This document shows, piece after piece, positions 35,088-45,245 of a DNA stretch of 64,000 nucleotides (its first letter is position 1; each line of letters starts with the position of its first letter). Where the stretch lies: NCBI RefSeq assembly GCF_003788635.1, contig NZ_AYKH01000001.1:186001-250000 (forward strand), given 5' to 3'. This DNA is from Salinisphaera orenii subsp. orenii MK-B5 (GTDB lineage: Bacteria; Pseudomonadota; Gammaproteobacteria; Nevskiales; Salinisphaeraceae). The notes beneath the pieces are model-generated. The model did not search any database and was not told the origin of the DNA. It saw nothing but the letters and a program-made list of their open reading frames with translations. The translations under genes and the position numbers were made by a program.

Positions 35088-35693
35088 CTACTGGCGTATC
35101 GCCTCGAACTCGAAGTCCAGTTCGACCGTGTCGCCCACCATGCCGTTGGCCACCCCGTAATCGATGCCCCAGCGGCTGCGCTCGATGCGGGTGCTCGCCG
35201 ATACGCCCAGGGTATGCTGGCCGTGGCCGAAGGGATACTCCGCGCTCTTGTTGATGGTCACATCCAGCGTCACCGGATGGGTCTCACCGTGCAGCGTGAG
35301 ATCGCCCTCGAGTTGTCCGCCGTCCTCGCCGTCCGGCCTGTACTCGCGCGCCACGAATACGATCTCCGGGTGATCCTCGACCGCCAGGAAATCGTCGCCG
35401 CGGACGTGGCCGTCGCGCTCCTCGTGATTGGTGAACACGCTGTCGGCGGCGATCTCCACGCGACCTTCGGACAGCTCGCGGGCAGCCTCGTCGTAGACGA
35501 AGCTGCCTTCACCCTCCAGAAACATGCCCAGCACATCGGCATAGCCGACGTGCTCGATCGAGAAACCGATGGAGAAATGGTCCGGATCGATCTCGTAGCG
35601 TTCGGGCTCCGCCACGGCCGTGCCTGCGGCACATAGGGCGAGCGCGGCCGCGGTCAGGCGCGCGCCGGTCAGGGTCGACGTCGGGAATGGCAT
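35088..35693 (-). CDS. YceI-family periplasmic protein
   Basis: A 201-residue lipocalin-like protein from the ATG at 35693. Signal peptide at about 1-28 (LTAAALALCAAGTAVAEPER). The YceI pattern is complete: YEIDPDHFSIGFSIEHVGYA, GMFLEGEGSFVYDEAA, VEIAADSVFTNHEERDGHVR, DDFLAVEDHPEIVFVAREY, LTLHGETHPVTLDVTIN and SRWGIDYGVANGMVGDTVEL. These proteins bind long isoprenoid chains in the periplasm. The gene lies 55 bp after the CDP-alcohol transferase gene, same direction, so it may be co-transcribed. Confidence 0.9.
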   Translation of the reverse strand: MPFPTSTLTGARLTAAALALCAAGTAVAEPERYEIDPDHFSIGFSIEHVGYADVLGMFLEGEGSFVYDEAARELSEGRVEIAADSVFTNHEERDGHVRGDDFLAVEDHPEIVFVAREYRPDGEDGGQLEGDLTLHGETHPVTLDVTINKSAEYPFGHGQHTLGVSASTRIERSRWGIDYGVANGMVGDTVELDFEFEAIRQ

Positions 35694-35748: not shown

Positions 35749-36540
35749 TCATGACGCGTCAGGCGTACGAGCATCGCATCGGTGGCGCAGCAGCCACCAC
35801 GTGTCGCGGCCGAACGACACCGCCAGCAGCGACAGCGCCGTCGCAGCGGCCCCGACGGCCACGGCGGCGGGCATCGCCGGCACAAAGCACAGCAACAGGG
35901 TCACGACCTGCCAGACGCACACGACCTTGCGGAAAACGCTCGGCGGCAGGGGCCGGCGCATCCACGGCAGCAGGCGCCCCGCGCACACGAACAGATAGCG
36001 CGCCAGGCCGATCCCCAGCACCCAGGGGCCGACCCGTTCGGTCGCCACCAGGCCGACGCAGAGCACGAGGATGAAAAACGCATCCAGTTCCATGTCGAAG
36101 CGGGCGCCGAACGCGGTGATCGAGCGCGTGCGGCGCGCCACCCAGCCGTCGACGCCGTCGAGCAGCAGTGCCGCTAGCGCCAGGCCGAGCACGGCATAGG
36201 GGTGGGCACGCGGCACCTCCGGAAACACCAGCAGGCCGGCGATGAGCAGCACGAAGGCCGCGCGCAGCAGCGTGACCCGGTTGGCCCAGCCCAGCCGGGC
36301 CGGCGGCGCCTCGCCCGGCCCCACGAGCACGACCGCGAGCGCGAGATACAATCCCCCGGCCGAGACGCGCAGCATCGGCGGCGCGTCGAGAAGCCCCATG
36401 GCCAGCTCCACGCCCGCGAACAGCAGTGTAAATCCGATCAGCAGTTCGCCCGCCGCTCGCAGACGCCGCCGGGCCGGCGAGGCGGCGCTAGTGGGCCCCT
36501 CGCCGACCGCCGGCGTGCCATGCTCGAACGCGCGCATCAT
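35749..36540 (-). CDS. CDP-alcohol phosphatidyltransferase family membrane protein
   Basis: A 263-residue polytopic protein with about seven membrane segments. The catalytic motif DG-x2-AR-x8-G-x3-D-x3-D is present as DGVDGWVARRTRSITAFGAR, then FDMELD. Enzymes of this class condense a CDP-activated lipid or alcohol with a second alcohol. I use the ATG at 36540; a GTG eleven codons upstream is possible. It is divergent (115 bp) from the dehydrogenase that opens the pterin-like cluster, so it may supply a lipid anchor to that pathway. Substrate unknown; it is not a typical PgsA, which is shorter. Confidence 0.82.
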   Translation of the reverse strand: MMRAFEHGTPAVGEGPTSAASPARRRLRAAGELLIGFTLLFAGVELAMGLLDAPPMLRVSAGGLYLALAVVLVGPGEAPPARLGWANRVTLLRAAFVLLIAGLLVFPEVPRAHPYAVLGLALAALLLDGVDGWVARRTRSITAFGARFDMELDAFFILVLCVGLVATERVGPWVLGIGLARYLFVCAGRLLPWMRRPLPPSVFRKVVCVWQVVTLLLCFVPAMPAAVAVGAAATALSLLAVSFGRDTWWLLRHRCDARTPDAS

Positions 36541-36655
36541 CGCGGCTCGCCGCGGATATCGATGCGCGGCCACCCTGCACGCCGGCCGCGCGCTGGATCA
36601 ACCGCGCCCGGGCTGCAAGTATTGCCGGAGAATTTCTGTTGCATGACATCCATAC

Positions 36656-37633
36656 ATGAATGATACCGGCGACCGCGCCTTTTGGTTGCACCCGCCCCAC
36701 GACAGCCGCATCGAGCCGATCGCCGTGGGCGCGCCGGACGCCGGCGAACTGCGCGTGCGCAGCCGCTACAGTGCGGTCAGCCGCGGCACCGAGACGCTGG
36801 TCTACGCCGGTGGCGTGCCGGCGAGCGAATACGAGCGCATGCGGGCACCGTTCCAGGCCGGCGCCCTGCCCGGCCCAGTACGCCACGGCTACGCGAACGT
36901 CGGCGTGGTCGAGGCCGGTCCGGACGAGTGGCTCGGGCGCGAGGTGTTCTGTCTGTATTCGCACCAGACGCGCTACGTGGTGCCCGTCGACGCCGTCGTC
37001 GCCCTGCCGGCGGACGTACCGCCGGAGCGCGCGATCCTCGCGGCCAACATGGAGACCGCGATCAACGCGCTCTGGGACACGGCGCCGGGCATCGGCGAGC
37101 GCATCACCGTGATCGGCGCCGGCGTGGTCGGCGCGCTGGTCGCGGGACTCGCCGCGTCGCTGCCCGGCGCCGACGTCGAACTGGTGGACATCGACGACCG
37201 CAAGGCGCGGCTGGGCGACGCTCTGGGCGTGCGCTTTCGCTCGCCGGCGGCGGCCGCGGGCGAGCGCGACCGCGTCATTCACGCCAGTGGCAGCGAGGCC
37301 GGGCTCGCCCAGGCTCTGACGCTGGCCGGTTTCGAGGCCACCGTCACCGAGATGAGCTGGTACGGCACGCAGGCGCCGCGGGTTCCGCTCGGCGGCGCCT
37401 TCCACTCGCGGCGTCTGACGCTGCGGGCAAGCCAGGTGGGCGGCGTCGCGCCCGGCCAGCGCCCGCGCTGGAGCCACCACCGCCGCCTCGCGCTGGCGGT
37501 CTCGCTGCTCGCCGACGCCCGCTTCGACGCCCTCATCGACGCCGAGGCGCCCTTCGAGCGCCTGCCCGAGGTCATGGCGCGTCTGGCCGACCCGCAGGAT
37601 GCCACGCTCTGCCAGCGCATCCGCTATGACTAG
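36656..37633 (+). CDS. MDR-family dehydrogenase without zinc ligands (BchC-like)
   Basis: A 325-residue medium-chain dehydrogenase/reductase. The N-terminal GroES-like part contains RSRYSAVSRGTETLVYAGG and GPVRHGYANVGVVEAG; the Rossmann part has TVIGAGVVGALVAGLAASLP and an Asp (VELVDIDDRKA) suggesting NAD. Catalytic and structural zinc Cys residues of alcohol dehydrogenases are lacking. The end (MSWYGTQAPRVPLGGAFHSR, RLTLRASQVGGVAP) matches a subfamily usually found beside PTPS-like and glycosyltransferase genes, as here. The substrate is unknown. Confidence 0.8.
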   Translation: MNDTGDRAFWLHPPHDSRIEPIAVGAPDAGELRVRSRYSAVSRGTETLVYAGGVPASEYERMRAPFQAGALPGPVRHGYANVGVVEAGPDEWLGREVFCLYSHQTRYVVPVDAVVALPADVPPERAILAANMETAINALWDTAPGIGERITVIGAGVVGALVAGLAASLPGADVELVDIDDRKARLGDALGVRFRSPAAAAGERDRVIHASGSEAGLAQALTLAGFEATVTEMSWYGTQAPRVPLGGAFHSRRLTLRASQVGGVAPGQRPRWSHHRRLALAVSLLADARFDALIDAEAPFERLPEVMARLADPQDATLCQRIRYD

Positions 37634-37670
37634 CGCGCGCGTATCGCCACCCCATACCACAGGATCTGCC

Positions 37671-38069
37671 ATGTACAGTCTGACCGTCCGCGATCACTTC
37701 ATGATCGCCCACAGTTTCAACGGCGAGATATTCGGCCCGGCCCAGCACACCCACGGTGCGACCTACGTGGTCGACGTCACCTTCCGGCGCGAGGCGCTCG
37801 ACGCCGACGACCTGGTCATCGACATCGGTCTGGCCGGCGCGGGCCTCAAGGAGGTGCTCGCCGGGCTGAACATGCGCGATCTGGACGAGGAGCCGGCCTT
37901 CTCGGGCCGCAACACCACGACCGAATTCCTCGCCGGGGTGGTCTTCGAGCGCATGCGCGAGGCCATCCGCGCCGGCCGGCTCGGCGACAGCGCCCGCGGC
38001 GTCGAGGCGATGAGCGTGACTCTGTCGGAGTCGCATATCGCCTGGGCGAGCTTCGAGGGCCGCGTGTGA
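37671..38069 (+). CDS. PTPS/QueD-fold protein lacking catalytic residues
   Basis: A 132-residue T-fold protein of the 6-pyruvoyl-tetrahydropterin synthase/6-carboxytetrahydropterin synthase family. Zinc ligands His14 (MIAHSFNG), His26 and His28 (QHTHGATY) and the pterin-anchoring Glu120 (SESHIAW) are present. The protein has no Cys at all, so the nucleophile that normally precedes HGH is absent, and the LDHxxLN catalytic motif reads LNMRDLD at 66-72. It therefore probably binds a pterin-like ligand but performs different chemistry. AGGA precedes the ATG; four-base overlap with the glycosyltransferase gene. Confidence 0.82.
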   Translation: MYSLTVRDHFMIAHSFNGEIFGPAQHTHGATYVVDVTFRREALDADDLVIDIGLAGAGLKEVLAGLNMRDLDEEPAFSGRNTTTEFLAGVVFERMREAIRAGRLGDSARGVEAMSVTLSESHIAWASFEGRV

Positions 38070-39127
38070 CGCCGATCACGTTCGTCGTCGCCGGCGATCC
38101 GGAACAGCGCACCGGCGGCTACCGTTACGACGCGCGCATCGTCGCCGGTCTGCGCGAACTCGGCCACCCGGTCTCGGTGGCCGGGCTCGAGGGCCGCTTT
38201 CCGGAGCCCGATGCCCGGGCCGCGCGCGCCCTCGAACGGGCGCTGGACGCCTGCGCCGACGGCGCCTGCGTGATCGTCGACGGGCTCGTGCTCGGCGGCC
38301 TGGCCGAGACCGCCCGTGCCCACGCCGATCGCCTGCGCCTGATCGCGCTCGTACATCACCCGCTCGCCGACGAGACCGGCCTGACGGCCGCCGCGAGCGC
38401 CCGGCTGCTCGCCGACGAACGCGCCGCACTGGCCGTCGCCCGGGCGGTGGTCGTCACCAGCGGCTTCACCGCCCGCCGACTGGTCGAGCTCGGCCTCGCC
38501 GCCGCTCCGCCGCGGGTGATCGAGCCCGGCACCGATCCGGCGCCGGTGGCCCGCGGCAGCGACGGCCCCGGCTGCCGCCTGCTGTGTGTCGCGACCGTCA
38601 CCCCCCGCAAGGGCCACGCCGTGCTCCTCGACGCACTCGCCCGGCTCGCCGACCGCGACTGGCACTGCGACGTGGTCGGCAGCCTCGACCGCGAGCCGGC
38701 ACACGCGGCCTGTATCCGCGCCCGCATCGACACGCTCGGCCTCGGCGCACGCGTGCACTTGCACGGCGACTGCAACGAGCGCGAACTCGCCGCCGCCTAC
38801 GATCGTGCCGATCTGTTCGTGCTGGCCTCGCATTACGAAGGCTACGGGATGGTCGTCACCGAGGCCCTGGCCCGCGGTCTGCCGCTGGTCACGACTAACG
38901 GCGGAGCGCTCGCCGATACGGTTCCGGCGCGGGCCGCGCGCACGGCCGCCCCCGGCGACGTCGCCGCGCTGGCCGCCGCGCTGGGCTCGCTGCTGGACGA
39001 CCCGGCCGCGCTGGCCGCCGTGCGGCGCGGCGCGCTGGCCGAGCGCGAACGACTGCGCCGCTGGCGGGCGTCCGCCACCGAGTTCTCGACGATCGTCGAA
39101 GCCCTGGCCGACGACGTGCCGGCATGA
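38066..39127 (+). CDS. GT4-type glycosyltransferase
   Basis: A 353-residue GT-B fold enzyme starting at GTG. The N-terminal domain has VVAGDPEQRTGGYRYDARIV; the C-terminal donor-binding domain has CVATVTPRKGHAVLLDALAR, VHLHGDCNERELAAAYDRAD and the retaining E-x7-E motif in SHYEGYGMVVTEALARGLPL. It would move a sugar from a nucleotide donor to an acceptor made in this cluster. Overlaps of four bases on both sides put it in a five-gene operon. Confidence 0.88.
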   Translation: MTPITFVVAGDPEQRTGGYRYDARIVAGLRELGHPVSVAGLEGRFPEPDARAARALERALDACADGACVIVDGLVLGGLAETARAHADRLRLIALVHHPLADETGLTAAASARLLADERAALAVARAVVVTSGFTARRLVELGLAAAPPRVIEPGTDPAPVARGSDGPGCRLLCVATVTPRKGHAVLLDALARLADRDWHCDVVGSLDREPAHAACIRARIDTLGLGARVHLHGDCNERELAAAYDRADLFVLASHYEGYGMVVTEALARGLPLVTTNGGALADTVPARAARTAAPGDVAALAAALGSLLDDPAALAAVRRGALAERERLRRWRASATEFSTIVEALADDVPA

Positions 39128-39993
39128 GCGATGCGATCGTCCCGGACGCCCGCTTCGCCGCCGACTGGCTCGCCCTGCGCGAACCCGCCGACCACGCCGC
39201 GCGCAGCAGTGGACTGAGCGAAGCCGCAGCGGCCCGGCTGGCCGCTGCGCCGGACGACACCCTGCGGATCGTAGATCTCGGCTGCGGCAGCGGCTCGAAT
39301 CTGCGCCATCTGGCACCGCGTCTGCCCGGACCCCAGCACTGGCACCTGGTCGATCACGACGCCGATCTGCTGGCCCGCGCGGCGCGCGAGTGCGCCGACC
39401 AGCGCGATCGCTCGGGGCGCCCGGTAACGATCACCACAATCGCCGCGGACCTCGACCACGATCCGGGGGCCCTGATCGCCGAAGCGCATCTGGTGACCGC
39501 CGCGGCGCTGTTGGATCTGGTCGATGCCGACTGGCTGGATCGTCTCGCGACCGCCTGTGCCGCCCACGTCGTCCCGGCGCTGATCGCGCTCAGCGTGGAC
39601 GGCGATCTGGCCTTCGAGACCGACGGCGCGCCCGAGGATGATGAAGACGACGCCTTCGTCTTCGCCCGGCTCGCCGAGCACCAGCGCCGCGACAAGGGCT
39701 TCGGCGCCGCGCTCGGCACGCAGGCGCCGGCGGCGTTCGAGCGGGCCTTCCAGCGCCACGGCTGGCACGTGGCTCCGGCTGCGACCCCCTGGCGTCTCGG
39801 CCGCGACGACGCCCGGCTCGCCGCCGCCCTGATCGACGGCTGGCGCGAGGCGGCCACCGCCCAGGCCCCGGCCCGCGCGGCCCGCATCGCCGGCTGGGCG
39901 CGGCGGCGCGCGGCGGATGTCGCCGCCGGCCGGGCATGCTGCCGCGTGGGGCACCGCGACCTGCTCGCCACGCCGCCGCGGGCCGAGCCGTGA
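39124..39993 (+). CDS. Class I SAM-dependent methyltransferase
   Basis: A 289-residue protein. The SAM-binding motif I is IVDLGCGSGSNLRHLAPRLP at about residues 43-62, with acidic motif II LVDHDADLLARAARE. A DLVDADWLDRLATACAAHVV stretch matches motif post-I, and the rest is Ala-rich. The acceptor cannot be read. It is cotranslated with the glycosyltransferase and the membrane protein, so its substrate is likely the same compound. Confidence 0.83.
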   Translation: MSDAIVPDARFAADWLALREPADHAARSSGLSEAAAARLAAAPDDTLRIVDLGCGSGSNLRHLAPRLPGPQHWHLVDHDADLLARAARECADQRDRSGRPVTITTIAADLDHDPGALIAEAHLVTAAALLDLVDADWLDRLATACAAHVVPALIALSVDGDLAFETDGAPEDDEDDAFVFARLAEHQRRDKGFGAALGTQAPAAFERAFQRHGWHVAPAATPWRLGRDDARLAAALIDGWREAATAQAPARAARIAGWARRRAADVAAGRACCRVGHRDLLATPPRAEP

Positions 39994-40928
39994 CGCCGCG
40001 CCGCGCCGCCCTGCTGCGACTGAGCGTGACCGTCATCCTGCTAGGACTCGTGGCCTGGCGGCTGGATACCGCCGAGATCGCGGCGCAACTCGGCACCATC
40101 GCACCCGGCTGGGCGCTCGCGGCACTCGCGCTGACGGTGCCTCAGGTGGTCGTCTCCGCCTGGCGCTGGCGGCTGACCGCGCACGGCATCGGCCTGGATC
40201 TGCGCCTGCCGGTGGCCGTACGCGAATACTATCTGGCGACGTTTCTCAACCAGATACTGCCCGGCGGCGTGCTGGGAGACGCCACGCGGGCCTGGCGCCA
40301 CGCCCGCCACAACGACAACCGCGGCGCGGTTCACGCGGTCCTGATCGAACGCCTGTCCGGACAGCTGGCCATGCTGCTGATCGCCGCCCTCGCGGTCCTT
40401 CAGGCACGGGGGCTGCGTCAGGGCGTCGCCCGTGCCTTCGAGCAGATCGACCCCTGGGCCGCCACGGGGGGATTCATCCTACTGGCCGGCGGCGGTCTGC
40501 TCACGGCGTTCCTGGTGCGCGGTTCGCGGCGCATGGCGATTCATCTGCTGAGCCTGATCGACAGTCTCGGACGCGGACTGCTGGGACGCCGCATGGTCGC
40601 GCTGCAGCTGGCGAGCTCGCTGCTCGTGGCCGCCAGTTATGTTGGCGTGTTCGTGCTCTGTGCCCAGGCGCTGGGGCTGGATCGCGGCGCGCAGTCCCTC
40701 TGGATGCTCGCGCCGCCGGTACTGCTGGCGATGGCGATCCCGCTGTCGGTCGCCGGCTGGGGCCTGCGCGAAGGCGCCGCCGCGGTCATCTGGAGTCTGG
40801 CGGGCCTGCCGGCGCAGGAGGGCGTGGCGATCTCGATCACCTATGGCCTGATCGTGCTGGTATCCAGCCTGCCGGGGCTAGTGGTGCTTGCGCGGGGTGG
40901 CCGACGGCGGGCGGCGGCCCATGCCTAG
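39990..40928 (+). CDS. Flippase-like membrane protein (lysyl-PG synthase TM family, UPF0104)
   Basis: A 312-residue protein with about eight transmembrane segments from the GTG at 39990, overlapping the previous stop. It shows the family motifs YYLATFLNQILPGGVLGDAT, AVLIERLSGQLAMLL and IPLSVAGWGLREGAAAVIWS. These domains (PF03706) move lipids or glycolipids across the inner membrane or accompany MprF synthases. In the cluster it could export a glycosylated product. The stop overlaps the convergent RibD-type gene stop. Confidence 0.85.
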   Translation: MTPRRAALLRLSVTVILLGLVAWRLDTAEIAAQLGTIAPGWALAALALTVPQVVVSAWRWRLTAHGIGLDLRLPVAVREYYLATFLNQILPGGVLGDATRAWRHARHNDNRGAVHAVLIERLSGQLAMLLIAALAVLQARGLRQGVARAFEQIDPWAATGGFILLAGGGLLTAFLVRGSRRMAIHLLSLIDSLGRGLLGRRMVALQLASSLLVAASYVGVFVLCAQALGLDRGAQSLWMLAPPVLLAMAIPLSVAGWGLREGAAAVIWSLAGLPAQEGVAISITYGLIVLVSSLPGLVVLARGGRRRAAAHA

Positions 40929-41737
40929 CCGGGACCGCCGAGATCCAGATCGAACAGCGTGTCGGCATCCAGCGCATGAGTGCAGCACGGCGGCCGCAGG
41001 GCGGCATCGAGCGTCTCGATCTCGGCCAGCGTCACCGCGGGCCGGCCGGAGCCGATGACCATGGGCGCGACGACCACGTGCAGCCGATCGAGCAGCCCCG
41101 CTGCCAGAAAGCGCGAGACGGTCAGTCCGCCGCCCTCCACGAGCACCCGGCGCAGCCCGCGCGCGGCCAGCGCGGCGAGAAGCGTCGCCGGCGCCAGGGC
41201 GCCCGCCGCATCCGGCGCGACCGCCACGGTCTCCACGCCGGGGCCCCGGCATGCCCGCCGCCCCTGCGCCACCACGTGCAGCGTGGGCGCGGCACCGTCG
41301 GTGAACAGCAGCCGGTCGGGCCCGACCCGCGCGTTCGGATCGAGCACCACACGCACCGGATCGGCGCCGTCGACATGGCGGACCGTGAGGCGCGGATCGT
41401 CGGCCTGGGCGGTCCCGGCGCCGACGACCACGGCGTCCACCAGCGCCCGCAGCCGATGCAGATGCGTGCGGCTGGCCGCCCCGGTGACGTAGTGCGACGC
41501 ACCGGTAATCGTGGCGATGCGCCCGTCGAGACTCTGGCCGAGCTGGCCGACGACGGTGCCGGCACGCGTGATCGGCGCAAGCGTGTCCAGCAGCGCAGCG
41601 GCTTCGGGCTCGACCGCCCCGTCGGCCCGCCAGCGGCCGTCGGCGTCGATCGTGACCGCGGGCGTCATCCCATCGCCGCGGCCCGTGCATGCATCGCGAA
41701 GCGATCGCCATGCGTAGTCGATATCGATTGCCGTCAT
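40925..41737 (-). CDS. Stand-alone RibD C-terminal-type reductase
   Basis: A 270-residue NADPH reductase of the RibD_C/dihydrofolate reductase-like family. Motifs: VVGQLGQSLDGRIAT, VVGAGTAQADDPRLTVR, and RRVLVEGGGLTVSRFLAAGL. It lacks the RibD deaminase domain, as do archaeal ArfC and fungal Rib7. Those enzymes reduce the ribosyl side chain of 2,5-diamino-6-ribosylaminopyrimidinone phosphate. GGAGG six bases upstream fixes the ATG at 41737. About 65 extra N-terminal residues lack a family match. It is divergent from the GTP cyclohydrolase II gene. Confidence 0.85.
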   Translation of the reverse strand: MTAIDIDYAWRSLRDACTGRGDGMTPAVTIDADGRWRADGAVEPEAAALLDTLAPITRAGTVVGQLGQSLDGRIATITGASHYVTGAASRTHLHRLRALVDAVVVGAGTAQADDPRLTVRHVDGADPVRVVLDPNARVGPDRLLFTDGAAPTLHVVAQGRRACRGPGVETVAVAPDAAGALAPATLLAALAARGLRRVLVEGGGLTVSRFLAAGLLDRLHVVVAPMVIGSGRPAVTLAEIETLDAALRPPCCTHALDADTLFDLDLGGPG

Positions 41738-41895
41738 CGGAGCCTCCGGAGTGCGCATCGTTTCCGGCGCAACACGGATAGCCGCCGCGGGCGCCGGGCA
41801 TCACCCTATCCCAAAAGCCGGCTCGACGAACCCGACCGGCATTGTGTTCTTGATCCAACGGCGTGCATTTGGTCGCGTCGATCAAGCGAGGTCAC

Positions 41896-43023
41896 ATGCG
41901 ACAGATAGAACGTTCGATCTTCGACCTGCGCCGCGGTGTGCCGGTGCTCGTGCGCGGCCGCGACCGCGACACGCTCGTCGCACCGCTCGAGGGGCTGACC
42001 GACGAGACGCTCACGCGCCTGCGGGCGACCACCGGCAACCCGCCGGCGCTCGTGGTCACCCGCCACCGGCTCGAGCGCATGGGCATCGAGATCGCCGCGG
42101 ATGCCGCGCGGCTGTCGCTGGCGGACGGCGACAGCGCGCAGACCGTCGTCGCCTGGGCCTGCGCGCGCCACGTCGAGCACAGCCCGCACCAGCGGCCGAC
42201 GGACGTCGACCGGGAATCGCACGCCGCGCTCGCGCTCATGCGCCGCGGTCTGCTGATCCCCGCCGCCGTGACCGCGACGATCGACGCCTCGCGGCGCGAG
42301 GCCGTGCAGAAGCTGATCGACGACCAGACGCTGCTCGCCATCGACGTCGACCGCATCGAGGCCTACGAGTCGAGTGCGACCCACTTCCTGCGCCGGATCA
42401 GCGCGGCGGACGTACCGCTGGCCGACGCCGAGAAGAGCCGCTTCGTGCTCTTTCGCGAGGCCGACGGCGTGCGCGAGCACATCGCCATCGTCATCGGCGA
42501 GCCGGAATCCTGGCGCACGGCGGTGCCGGTGCGGCTGCATTCGGCCTGCCTGACCGGCGACCTGTTCGGCAGCCTGCGCTGCGACTGTGGCGAGCAGCTG
42601 CGCTCGAGCGTGGCCGCCATCGCCGAGCGCGGCGGCGGCGTGCTGCTCTACCTCGCTCAGGAAGGCCGCGGCATCGGCCTGGCCAACAAGCTGCGCGCCT
42701 ACAGCCTGCAGGACGACGGCCTGGACACGGTCGACGCCGACCAGGTGCTGGGTTTCGGCGACGACGAGCGCGACTACAACGTCGCCCTGGAGATGCTCGC
42801 CCAGCTCGAGATCCGGCGCATCGAACTGCTCACCAACAATCCGGCCAAGATCGCGGCGATGAGCGGCGGCGGGATCGCCGTGGTCCAGCGCAGCGGCGTC
42901 TACGGCCGCCTCACGGCCCAGAACGAGCGCTATCTGACCGCCAAGGCGGCGCGTTCCGGCCACTGGCTCGACAACGTGCTCGGCAAGCCGTCCGCGGATG
43001 TGGCGATGAACGGCAAGGGCTAG
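41896..43023 (+). CDS. GTP cyclohydrolase II with degenerate RibB-like N-terminal domain
   Basis: A 375-residue protein. The C-terminal GTP cyclohydrolase II domain is intact: zinc Cys in HSACLTGDLFGSLRCDCGEQ, catalytic LYLAQEGRGIGLANKLRAYS, NNPAKI and YGRLTAQNERYLTAKAARS. It turns GTP into the diaminopyrimidinone ribosyl phosphate, formate and pyrophosphate. The N-terminal 150 residues align by eye to RibB (LRRGVPVLVRGRDRD versus LRxGxxVVVVDDEDREN), but the acidic catalytic residues are gone, so DHBP synthase activity is unlikely. GAGG precedes the ATG at 41896. The TAG stop lies inside a terminal inverted repeat of a small element. Confidence 0.9.
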   Translation: MRQIERSIFDLRRGVPVLVRGRDRDTLVAPLEGLTDETLTRLRATTGNPPALVVTRHRLERMGIEIAADAARLSLADGDSAQTVVAWACARHVEHSPHQRPTDVDRESHAALALMRRGLLIPAAVTATIDASRREAVQKLIDDQTLLAIDVDRIEAYESSATHFLRRISAADVPLADAEKSRFVLFREADGVREHIAIVIGEPESWRTAVPVRLHSACLTGDLFGSLRCDCGEQLRSSVAAIAERGGGVLLYLAQEGRGIGLANKLRAYSLQDDGLDTVDADQVLGFGDDERDYNVALEMLAQLEIRRIELLTNNPAKIAAMSGGGIAVVQRSGVYGRLTAQNERYLTAKAARSGHWLDNVLGKPSADVAMNGKG

Positions 43024-43169
43024 TGTCCTGTTCCCGCACGTAACCTCCCACGACGGGCGGCGTTGCGAAACCGCTCCTTATGTCCCGATACGGCCTGGTT
43101 CCGCGCCTCGCCCGCCACGCCGACGGCACATACTCGTCGAGGTAAGAGACTCACGAGACAGGGCACTAG
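43020..43169. mobile_element. Candidate 150-bp MITE-like element with terminal inverted repeats
   Basis: CTAGTGTCCTGT at 43020-43031 and the complement of CTAGTGCCCTGT at 43158-43169 match at 11 of 12 positions. Both ends carry a CTAG/TA, as for elements that target TA. No ORF lies inside, and the interior contains complementary GC-rich arms. The left end supplies the stop codon of the GTP cyclohydrolase gene. Confidence 0.45.
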
Positions 43170-43191
43170 ACGACGACGCACGCGGCGCGGC

Positions 43192-44007
43192 TTACGGCAT
43201 CGAGCGCAGTCGCGACAGATCGAAGGCTGCGGCGTCGCGCAGCACGGCCGCGGTGCGCTCGGCGATGTGCGCGCACAGGGCCGCGCCGCGCTCGGCGTCG
43301 GCCAGGGTGGCGTCGCCGGCCACGCCGCTGGGATGCAGATCCTGGGCCATCCAGGCGAAGGCGGCCTCGCCCTCGGGGGCGATCGTGCGCCCGGCGTCCG
43401 CCAGCTCGCGACCGAGGGGCCGCGCATCCGCGACGTGTGCCGTGCGAATGTGCTCCGGTGCCAGATGGGCCATGAGCGCGGTTTCCAGCGCCCCGCCGTG
43501 CACGCCGTGGGCGAGTTCCGCCGCCGGCAGCGCCTCGGCCGCGGGGGCGAAACGGAAATAGCTGGCCTTGACCACGAGCATGGCGTGCGCGGCACGCAGC
43601 TTCAGCGCGGCCAGATCCATCACGGCCTTGTTGCCGCCGTGGCTGTTGAATAGCACCAGCCGGCGTATCCCCGCGCGGGCCAGATCCGCGCCGACCGACT
43701 CGAGCGTGGCGATGACCTGTTCGGCCGCCAGACTCAGGGTGCCCGGATAGGCGCTGTGCTCCAGGCTCGCGGCCGGCGCCAGCGTCGGCAGGATCAGCAG
43801 ATCGCGCGCGTCGGGCAGCGGCGTCTCGCGCAATGTGTCGCAGGCCGCGGCCAGCAGGCCCTCGCCGATGATCGTGTCGGTGCCCAGCGGCAGGTGGGCG
43901 CCGTGCTGCTCGACCGCGGCCAAGGGCCAGACGGCGACCGGATCGCCGGCGGCGACGTTGGCGAGCTCGGGCCCGGTCAGGTCCGCCCAGCGATGGATCG
44001 CACCCAC
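43192..44007 (-). CDS. Creatininase-family amidohydrolase
   Basis: A 271-residue protein with metal-binding motifs of the family (PF02633): VWPLAAVEQHGAHLPLGTDT, RRLVLFNSHGGNKAVMD and VHGGALETALMAH. Members include creatininase, MftE and the archaeal FAPy deformylase ArfB of the riboflavin/F420 route. Because GTP cyclohydrolase II and an ArfC-like reductase lie next to it, an ArfB-like hydrolase role is conceivable. It is convergent with the cyclohydrolase and overlaps no other gene; the peroxidase-like gene follows its start by 7 bp on the same strand. Confidence 0.83.
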   Translation of the reverse strand: MGAIHRWADLTGPELANVAAGDPVAVWPLAAVEQHGAHLPLGTDTIIGEGLLAAACDTLRETPLPDARDLLILPTLAPAASLEHSAYPGTLSLAAEQVIATLESVGADLARAGIRRLVLFNSHGGNKAVMDLAALKLRAAHAMLVVKASYFRFAPAAEALPAAELAHGVHGGALETALMAHLAPEHIRTAHVADARPLGRELADAGRTIAPEGEAAFAWMAQDLHPSGVAGDATLADAERGAALCAHIAERTAAVLRDAAAFDLSRLRSMP

Positions 44008-44014
44008 GTCGGCG

Positions 44015-44599
44015 CTAGCCTTCGCCCGGTTGGCGGCCCATCAGGTGAAACGCGTCGTTCGGCCGCATGGCGGTGACATGGGCCATCCGGTTGGACAGGG
44101 CGAAGAACGCCGCCACGGCGCCGATGTCCCAGATGTCCTCGTCGGAGAAGCCGTGCGCGCGCAGCGTCTCGCGCTCGGCCTCGCCCACGGTGTGTGAGGC
44201 GGTGGCGACCTGTACGGCAAAATCCAGCATCGCGCGCTGACGCGCGCTGATGTCGGCGTGGCGATAGTCGACCGCGAGCTGATCGGCGATCAGCGGATCG
44301 CCCTCGCGGATGCGCAGGATCGCGCCGTGGGCGACCACGCAGTACAGGCAGTGATTGATGCCCGAGGTGGCGACCACGATCATCTCGCGCTCGCCCTTGG
44401 TCAGCCCCGATTCCTTTTCCATCAGGGCGTCGTGATAGGCGAAGAAGGCGCGGAACTCGGCCGGCCGATGGGCCAGCACCCAGAACACGTTGGGCACGAA
44501 GCCGGCCTTGTCCTGCACGGCGAGGATTCGTTCGCGGATGTCCTCGGGCAGCTCGGCCTCGTCGGGCACCTCGAACGCGCTGATGGGCGCATCGGACAC
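44015..44599 (-). CDS. AhpD/carboxymuconolactone decarboxylase-family peroxidase-related protein
   Basis: A 194-residue protein with the redox motif CxxCxxxH in NHCLYCVVAHGAILRI. Other family segments are AGFVPNVFWVLAHRPAEFRA, GLTKGEREMIVVATSG and FSDEDIWDIGAVAAFFALSN. It probably reduces peroxides with a thiol donor. I choose the GTG at 44599, since AGGAG lies six bases upstream; the ATG two codons earlier touches the AGGAG with no spacing. The MSDAPISAFEVPDEAELPED start fits the family. Confidence 0.85.
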   Translation of the reverse strand: MSDAPISAFEVPDEAELPEDIRERILAVQDKAGFVPNVFWVLAHRPAEFRAFFAYHDALMEKESGLTKGEREMIVVATSGINHCLYCVVAHGAILRIREGDPLIADQLAVDYRHADISARQRAMLDFAVQVATASHTVGEAERETLRAHGFSDEDIWDIGAVAAFFALSNRMAHVTAMRPNDAFHLMGRQPGEG

Positions 44600-44657
44600 G
44601 GGCATCTCCTGATGGATGAACAGCGCGACGATAGCAGCGCCGGGCGCGAACGTCTCG

Positions 44658-45245
44658 TCAGGCGCCGGGGTCGTCGTCCCGCGGCTGCGGATCGCGCACG
44701 AAGCCGAGCGCGGCCGGCAGCGCGTCACGATCGCAGCGGTGCACGGCCAGCGCGCGGCCGAACGCGTCCAGCGTGAGATCGGTGGCGGTGCCGCCGGGGG
44801 CTTCGAGCGCCGCTTCGAGCGCGGCGTCGTCGACCGCCTCGCCCCGATGGCGCAGACGCTCGAGCACCCAAGCCAGATCGGCGCTATCGATCAGCGCCGC
44901 ACCGTCCGGGCTGTCGAGCACCGCGGCGCTGTCCTCGTCCAGATAGAGCGCGCGCGCATCGGTGACCGGCGTGCCGGTGTGGTCGACCAGGCCGTCGTCG
45001 GCCTGGACGCGCGCGACGCGGGGCGCGTAGTCCAGCGCGACATAGCCGCGCTGCGGCCCGTTCTGGAAGAACCAGCGGCCGTGCGCATCGACGGCGTAAT
45101 TGCGCGAGATGGTCTCCACGATGCGGGGATGGGTGATGCGCTCGCCCTGAATCAGCCAGTGGCCGCGGCGGCTCAGGCCCAGCCAGCCGAACAGCGCCGG
45201 CACATCCGGCCATTTCGCCAGCGCGCGTCGAACCCATTCGTCCAT
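44658..45245 (-). CDS. DUF2946-like protein
   Basis: A 195-residue protein with a compact N-terminal part: ALAKWPDVPALFGWLGLSRR, GHWLIQGERITHPRIVETIS, and GRWFFQNGPQRGYVALDYAP. This pattern matches a conserved beta/gammaproteobacterial family that I believe is DUF2946. The C-terminal half is acidic and less conserved. Function unknown. The ATG at 45245 is chosen because homology begins there; the longer frame to 45365 is not supported. Confidence 0.65.
   Translation of the reverse strand: MDEWVRRALAKWPDVPALFGWLGLSRRGHWLIQGERITHPRIVETISRNYAVDAHGRWFFQNGPQRGYVALDYAPRVARVQADDGLVDHTGTPVTDARALYLDEDSAAVLDSPDGAALIDSADLAWVLERLRHRGEAVDDAALEAALEAPGGTATDLTLDAFGRALAVHRCDRDALPAALGFVRDPQPRDDDPGA

Follow-up and report, generated by a model that had tools for sequence, protein, structure and literature searches.

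The gene cluster at positions 35749-44007 of a 64,000-nt stretch of Salinisphaera orenii subsp. orenii MK-B5 DNA (NZ_AYKH01000001.1, positions 186,001-250,000; the whole stretch is referred to as the window) almost certainly forms one functional unit, which includes a T-fold protein of the PTPS-IV subfamily. The cluster is conserved across phyla and its genes co-occur, some being fused into single frames and others set apart as modules in certain genomes. The PTPS-IV protein has undergone consistent residue losses, and an importer is found in relatives where this protein is missing. From these features we infer the chemical steps, their order, the product and the meaning of the importer: with a probability slightly short of even, the locus may encode a two-part pathway in which a pyrimidine or pterin derived from GTP would be glycosylated, methylated and attached to a lipid of the membrane or to a periplasmic glucan.

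Genes of the cluster

The nine gene families, with their strands and coordinates, that an earlier note had read from this DNA were all found by comparison with Pfam and NCBIfam. They are listed here together with a tenth gene (letters as used for the gene order below):

35088..35693, minus strand: YceI-family periplasmic protein (Pfam YceI, 141.8 bits), a cluster neighbour beyond the nine genes noted before
35749..36573, minus strand: CDP-alcohol phosphotransferase (C; Pfam PF01066, CDP-OH_P_transf, 64.5 bits)
36656..37633, plus strand: MDR-family dehydrogenase (D; no Pfam model above cut-off)
37671..38069, plus strand: PTPS-IV (FGPAQ) T-fold protein (P; Pfam PTPS, 78.5 bits)
38066..39127, plus strand: GT4 glycosyltransferase (G; 99.8 bits)
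39124..39993, plus strand: class I S-adenosylmethionine (SAM) methyltransferase (M; 33.7 bits)
39990..40928, plus strand: flippase-like LPG_synthase_TM / UPF0104 membrane protein (F; Pfam PF03706, 137 bits)
40925..41758, minus strand: stand-alone RibD-type reductase without deaminase domain (R; Pfam RibD_C, 137 bits)
41863..43023, plus strand: GTP cyclohydrolase II, RibA, with an N-terminal extension of ~180 residues (A; 191 bits)
43192..44007, minus strand: creatininase-family amidohydrolase (K; Pfam PF02633, 209.7 bits)

The proposed coupling of the PTPS, GT4, methyltransferase and flippase genes by 4-bp overlaps holds (38066-38069, 39124-39127 and, provided that the flippase begins at GTG 39990, 39990-39993). 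Comparison with homologues corrected the start of the PTPS gene to ATG at 37671, and the YceI gene is presumed to start at the Met preceding a signal-like peptide. YceI proteins are a lipid-binding family. The CDP-alcohol phosphotransferase has the DGxxAR...GxxxDxxxD residues, with identities of 0.99-1.00 across 86 aligned homologues; we take D-G-x2-A-R-x8-G-x3-D-x3-D to be the motif of such enzymes. The best NCBIfam match of the MDR dehydrogenase was BchC, at 36 bits and far under the cut-off, and the closest solved relative of the GT4 protein was D-inositol 3-phosphate glycosyltransferase (66.8 bits).

Conservation across phyla

A relative of the PTPS protein was detected by tblastn in 21 of 72,556 plasmid records, and cluster partners were present in seven of the eight records examined, from Thiodictyon, Streptomyces fungicidicus, Methylosinus, Rhodobacteraceae SC52, Rhizobium SL42, Microbacterium and Haloarcula, the last carrying the cluster in part. 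Likewise, a genome scan returned at least 589 stretches encoding such a relative, and the best 80 of these, which were retained, come from Gamma-, Beta- and Alphaproteobacteria, Acidobacteria, Gemmatimonadota and Actinomycetota. The window was combined with loci L033-L131 (8 plasmid, 11 + 80 genome loci) into a set of 100 loci, all carrying the PTPS relative. This is a biased sample, the 80 genome loci being those that match the window's own family best, and several loci are cut by contig ends, which lowers the partner counts. Within 10 kb of PTPS-IV, the MDR dehydrogenase was found in 98 loci, GT4 in 96, the CDP-alcohol phosphotransferase in 86, the flippase in 75, RibD_C in 71, creatininase in 52 and RibA in 44, the usual gene order being y-c-D-P-G-M-F-r-A-k. 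Methyltransferase matches were present in 94 of the 100 loci. The partner map gave each open reading frame its best family only, so that fused methyltransferase frames were counted as GT4; the GT4 profile seeds include GT4-methyltransferase fusions, so methyltransferase frames score on it too and the label is that of the better family.

GT4 and methyltransferase form a single frame in 20 of the 100 loci (one confirmed by Pfam), and a fusion of creatininase with RibD_C was seen in L093, from a Gemmatimonadales genome. Split arrangements were also observed. In genome G223 the RibD-RibA-creatininase trio lies together on another contig, away from contig ends, and G286 has, at ~65 kb from its PTPS genes, a second locus in which RibD, FkbM, YceI, the CDP-alcohol phosphotransferase and an OpgH are gathered. 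RibD and creatininase share a 9.6-kb contig in G155, which may be a mere assembly break. Because the trio stands apart from the rest in G223, and two of its members are fused in L093, the r-A-k genes travel as a unit. The idea of the earlier note that the genes belong to one set is thus borne out by cross-phylum conservation, by both kinds of fusion and by the split modules of G223 and G286; the comparison of genomes that it called for showed the MDR, PTPS-like, GT4, methyltransferase and flippase genes recurring together, in a neighbourhood conserved in related as well as distant genomes. Correlations of pairwise identity among five cluster genes (0.49-0.71, 60 loci) are given no weight, shared ancestry being uncontrolled. 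In two genomes of ~1.0-1.1 Mb (L050 and L051, from G142 and G255) y-c-D-P-G-M-F-r is retained, which suggests that it has value under genome reduction. On a Streptomyces anthocyanicus plasmid (L040, 8031-8456), PTPS-IV stands without its cluster partners and precedes a very large gene annotated as hypothetical.

Frequency of the cluster was assessed in 398 evenly drawn Pseudomonadota genomes, of which 27 (about 7%) contain the PTPS relative at E ≤ 1e-20. Around PTPS-IV in these 27 loci, the MDR dehydrogenase was found in 27, GT4 in 26, methyltransferase in 25, RibD_C in 23, flippase in 15, the CDP-alcohol phosphotransferase in 13 and RibA in 12; the other neighbours were OpgH (12), FkbM (8), YceI, creatininase and cytochrome b561 (7 each), OpgG (6) and sulfatase (5). 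The window and L042 belong to both this sample and the profile-building set, and at most 10 candidates per genome were scored for the PTPS relative, 3 for OpgH, 6 for the CDP-alcohol phosphotransferase and 5 for the binding protein described below.

Fourteen QueD neighbourhoods served as controls, three of them (L236-L238) from genomes with PTPS-IV elsewhere. None of the 14 matched MDR, GT4, methyltransferase, CDP-alcohol phosphotransferase, flippase or creatininase, nor YceI, FkbM, sulfatase, OpgG, OpgH or cytochrome b561, and a chance neighbourhood is thereby ruled out. RibD_C was matched in five (105-134 bits) and RibA in eight (72-120 bits), low scores which are taken to represent housekeeping rib genes.

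The PTPS-IV protein

FGPAQ occupies residues 21-25 of the window protein, F21, G22 and A24 being invariant in 18 aligned relatives, and the neighbourhood includes PF00925 and PF01872. Section 19 of PMC5445326 describes a PTPS-IV subfamily of COG0720 with this signature and a network with the same two families, and on sequence grounds the protein of the window is assigned to it. The alignment of 18 PTPS-IV with 16 QueD-type sequences revealed the loss of a Cys (Ala in 18/18), of the second His of the zinc pair (HGH to HGA in 17/18, HGT in 1/18) and of an Asp-His dyad (His gone in 18/18, Asp in 17/18). We take the Cys, the HxH pair and the dyad to be the residues of PTPS/QueD catalysis, and the C-terminal Glu and T-x-E to anchor the pterin; the latter two, E120 of the pocket and E85, are invariant in the 18 PTPS-IV sequences. 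The family assignment of the earlier note was correct, the catalytic residues of PTPS or QueD being lost, and canonical PTPS or queuosine chemistry is ruled out. The annotation in the eight plasmid records is nevertheless 6-carboxytetrahydropterin synthase, the queuosine enzyme. The Haloarcula relative (L039, 8007-8384) retains an HSH pair, as against HGA in the bacterial copies.

The sole solved relative found, and thus the nearest solved likeness, was Streptomyces coelicolor SCO6650 (PDB 3d7j; 169 bits, 130 residues), deposited as uncharacterized. Its abstract is said to report that zinc and the triad are missing and that the PTPS reaction does not take place.

Cyclohydrolase, reductase and amidohydrolase

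In the first part of the proposed pathway, cyclohydrolase II would open GTP to a ribosylated diaminopyrimidine phosphate, the stand-alone RibD reductase would convert the ribosyl to a ribityl group, and PTPS-IV, the MDR dehydrogenase and the creatininase-type amidohydrolase would remodel the heterocycle. A GTP-derived pyrimidine start, as first suggested from RibA and RibD, is favoured because cyclohydrolase II and a deaminase-less RibD recur, frequently yet not universally, and we consider a GTP origin of the product fairly likely. A cyclohydrolase II with a deaminase-less reductase resembles the archaeal and fungal reductase-first order of riboflavin synthesis. Unlike in the riboflavin pathway, however, the pair is accompanied by glycosyl, methyl, lipid and flippase genes in the window, and a separate rib operon is present.

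The cluster RibA of the window retains the cysteines of C-x10-C-x-C and a switch Tyr; presumably the former bind zinc and the latter matches E. coli Tyr105. Over 44 loci the switch residue was Tyr in 32, Met in 6, His in 5 and Ile in 1. The 11 Met and His forms are all actinobacterial, with RibD_C missing in 10 of the 11 and creatininase missing in none; most Streptomyces clusters lack RibD. Reportedly (Spoonamore et al., 2006), Met at the switch leaves the formyl group on the product. Taken together, the confinement of Met or His to all 11 actinobacterial clusters and this reported effect make it seem that the actinobacterial cluster RibA evolves with the cluster. The N-terminal extension of ~180 residues (window 41863-42402) gave no Pfam match and is covered only by the PRK08815 model, from residue 13, the other models beginning at residue 121 or later.

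Cluster RibD comprises only the RibD_C domain, whereas bifunctional riboflavin RibD has an N-terminal deaminase domain. D-P-x-L-T-x-R and E-G-G-G are conserved in 72 homologues, and none of the 72 contains PCxxxxTPPC, which we take to be the deaminase-type motif. The N-terminal ~67 residues (window 41558-41758) gave no Pfam match, and Trp17 is invariant in the 72-sequence alignment. The best solved match was 6p8c, named diaminopyrimidine reductase (92.7 bits).

Residues E33, H35, D44, H123 and E175 of the creatininase homologue are invariant in 52 homologues. The protein matches the Pfam superfamily only and scores under the NCBIfam cut-off of each named family (MftE 95.6/172, creatininase 79.4/235, ArfB 19.7/180 bits). 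A role as deformylase of the cyclohydrolase product was lowered as a candidate, since it suits the Met and His forms (creatininase in 11/11) and not the Tyr forms, where creatininase stands alongside in 30 of 32. Speculatively, the protein might open or trim the pyrimidine ring, because creatinine, like the 2-amino-4-pyrimidinone ring, is a cyclic acyl-guanidine.

Envelope-related neighbours

In the second part of the pathway, GT4 would attach a sugar and the methyltransferase would methylate, while the flippase-like protein, the CDP-alcohol phosphotransferase (elsewhere an OpgH-clade glucosyltransferase) and YceI would tie the compound to a lipid of the envelope or to a periplasmic glucan. 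A sulfatase-fold protein, an FkbM methyltransferase and cytochrome b561 may take part as well in some genomes. Among 103 loci scanned, YceI was found in 44, FkbM in 27, a sulfatase-fold membrane protein in 21, OpgG in 19, OpgH in 18 and cytochrome b561 in 5, the families being verified by Pfam/NCBIfam on representatives. In Halomonadaceae, Marinobacter, Gemmatimonadota and Methylosinus, PTPS-IV has OpgH and/or OpgG as neighbours within 10 kb. The OpgH, OpgG, YceI, sulfatase-fold and cytochrome b561 neighbours make the link to the envelope stronger than first stated. A glycosylated and methylated product would accord with the recurrence of the GT4, methyltransferase and envelope genes. Attachment of the heterocycle product to the envelope is, in our estimate, evenly balanced.

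A clade of OpgH proteins (Methylosinus query, at least 460 bits) was present in 10 of the 27 PTPS-IV genomes of the even sample and in 0 of the other 371 (Fisher 3e-13; this and the following Fisher tests ignore phylogeny apart from the even sampling), and beyond these ten nothing exceeded 328 bits among the 398. The query is itself cluster-linked, so that it is this clade, and not OpgH at large, which goes with PTPS-IV; in 2 of the 10 genomes the two genes are on different contigs. The cluster-type CDP-alcohol phosphotransferase occurs in 19 of the 398 genomes, namely 15 of the 27 with PTPS-IV and four others. It is exclusive with the OpgH clade, being present in 0 of the 10 OpgH-clade genomes (Fisher 8e-6 within the 27).

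Directly after the creatininase gene, at window 44015-44728, lies an AhpD-type peroxidase-related gene, which is not among the recurrent neighbour families.

An importer in relatives lacking PTPS-IV

Neither PTPS-IV nor the cluster MDR dehydrogenase is present (0/4 for each) in the four further genomes with the CDP-alcohol phosphotransferase (G444, G468, G498 and G537, from three genera of one family). All four retain the sulfatase, the flippase and a cluster-type GT4 (297-352 bits, compared with at most 38 bits for unrelated GT4 proteins of the even sample), and in three of the four modules cytochrome b561 is next to the CDP-alcohol phosphotransferase, none being detected in L256. Between flippase and GT4, each of the four carries an NMT1/THI5-type binding protein, and ABC permease or ATPase genes were identified in both modules scanned for them (L255, L256). 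Conversely, flippase and GT4 are adjacent, without importer, in G600, a member of the same family with PTPS-IV. With a query from the cluster-linked gene of G537, itself one of the matches, the binding protein reached at least 500 bits only in these four among the 398 genomes; the next score was 213 bits. Solved relatives of the binding protein include a formyl-aminopyrimidine-binding protein and THI13/THI5, which speaks for a pyrimidine-type cargo. We read this pattern to mean that the heterocycle would be either made by the first part of the pathway or imported, and then used by the second part.

Points against the proposed pathway and alternative explanations

Several observations weigh against the two-part pathway. 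None of RibA, RibD_C and creatininase is present throughout (44, 71 and 52 of 100 loci, contig-cut loci included), creatininase being found at only 7 of 27 loci in the even sample, and its presence beside Tyr-type cyclohydrolases is unexplained by deformylation. The exclusion between the CDP-alcohol phosphotransferase and the OpgH clade is largely a matter of class: in the window's class, every one of the 12 PTPS-IV genomes has the former and not the latter, and the 15 of another class comprise ten with the OpgH clade, three with the phosphotransferase and two with neither (Fisher 0.02). OpgH is absent beside the window's own cluster, the opgGH pair of that genome being on contig 17. As regards the importer, NMT1-type systems also carry sulfonates or nitrate, the permeases resemble the SaoP and SsuC models best (under cut-off), and the solved relatives of the binding protein match at no more than 40 bits, the first of them being an unspecified solute-binding protein. 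The four importer genomes are of one family and may represent a single evolutionary event.

An envelope glycolipid or glucan pathway without a GTP-derived part, in which the T-fold, RibD-type and creatininase proteins were repurposed for sugar or lipid chemistry, would agree with the envelope-type gene set of the PTPS-less genomes, the importer excepted, with GT4 being among the most constant genes and with the loss of known catalytic residues from PTPS-IV. However, the recurring cyclohydrolase II keeps its zinc cysteines, and the PTPS-IV pocket Glu and the RibD_C motifs are retained; we regard such a pathway as rather unlikely.

It is improbable that the locus serves mainly riboflavin supply, with RibA and RibD acting in flavin synthesis beside an envelope glycolipid operon and PTPS-IV having an unrelated role. 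The rib operon of the window genome encodes a normal deaminase-reductase RibD and a RibB-cyclohydrolase fusion, and, because this normal RibD exists, riboflavin synthesis has no need of the deaminase-less one. Likewise, two RibD_C copies are present in 11 of 12 PTPS-IV genomes, RibD, RibA and creatininase remain together when apart from the other cluster genes, and, going by the reported effect of Met, the actinobacterial Met and His switch forms should not suit plain riboflavin synthesis. Still, the cyclohydrolase part of the fusion (contig 5) is without zinc cysteines. No zinc-complete cyclohydrolase II other than cluster RibA was found in this genome (98% complete assembly), and cluster RibA, for that reason, probably also feeds riboflavin; RibA was, moreover, not found in 56 of the 100 loci, contig ends having cut some of these. 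In six PTPS-IV genomes (G155, G266, G068, G138, G251 and G142; L137-L142), the sole cyclohydrolase II match was a RibB fusion without zinc cysteines.

That cytochrome b561 and YceI serve a redox carrier, pterin-like, glycosylated and held in the membrane, appears quite improbable: cytochrome b561 was found in only 5 of the 103 loci of the larger set, despite its presence in 7 of 27 even-sample loci and three of the four PTPS-less modules and that of YceI in 44 of 103 loci.

Synthesis of the F420 cofactor, for which a PTPS-IV role is stated as unpublished data in section 7 of PMC5041015 and with which the archaeal and actinobacterial occurrences agree, is barely credible here and is disfavoured for the gammaproteobacterial-class relatives of the window, the group covered by the test, in which the FO synthase model TIGR03551 was above cut-off in 0 of 12 PTPS-IV genomes (sub-threshold matches of ~21 bits in 8) compared with 3 of 14 controls.

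Relation to known systems and significance

Part of the system is already in print. In section 19, the text of PMC5445326 shares FGPAQ and the PF00925/PF01872 neighbours with the window; it names just those two neighbours, reads PF00925 as FolE2, and does not contain the MDR-GT4-methyltransferase-flippase-CDP-alcohol phosphotransferase-creatininase set, the OpgH pattern or the importer (figures and supplement aside). The earlier view that no characterised pathway has this set accordingly stands for the full set, which searches of an open-access library did not turn up, and not for PTPS-IV with its RibA/RibD neighbours, which had been published. Those searches, supplements aside, also gave no description of the anatomy of the system as a whole, of the OpgH pattern or of the importer, which are new here.

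The opgG/opgH (mdoGH) genes of periplasmic glucan (OPG) synthesis are shared in part, OpgH being found in 12 of the 27 even-sample PTPS-IV loci; to our knowledge, neither a cyclohydrolase nor PTPS or RibD acts in OPG synthesis. Cyanobacteria and green sulfur bacteria make glycosylated pterins, for which they use a catalytic PTPS and sepiapterin reductase. The present cluster is likened to them in the logic of combining a PTPS-type protein with a glycosyltransferase. Taking all parts together, it is possible, although doubtful, that a multi-phylum pathway makes a GTP-derived pyrimidine or pterin, modifies it by glycosylation and methylation, and either uses the CDP-alcohol enzyme to place it on a phospholipid of the envelope or, through an OpgH from a separate clade, places it on or together with a periplasmic glucan, and that some relatives import the heterocycle. 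We know of no nucleotide-derived decoration of this kind on lipids or glucans.

From the OpgH pattern and the importer it is predicted that a single small heterocycle would feed the glycosyltransferase and then the membrane. The set occurs in ~7% of the even Pseudomonadota sample and in other phyla, and solving the pathway would give PTPS-IV a function, would mend a large block of annotation, and could reveal a new envelope compound.

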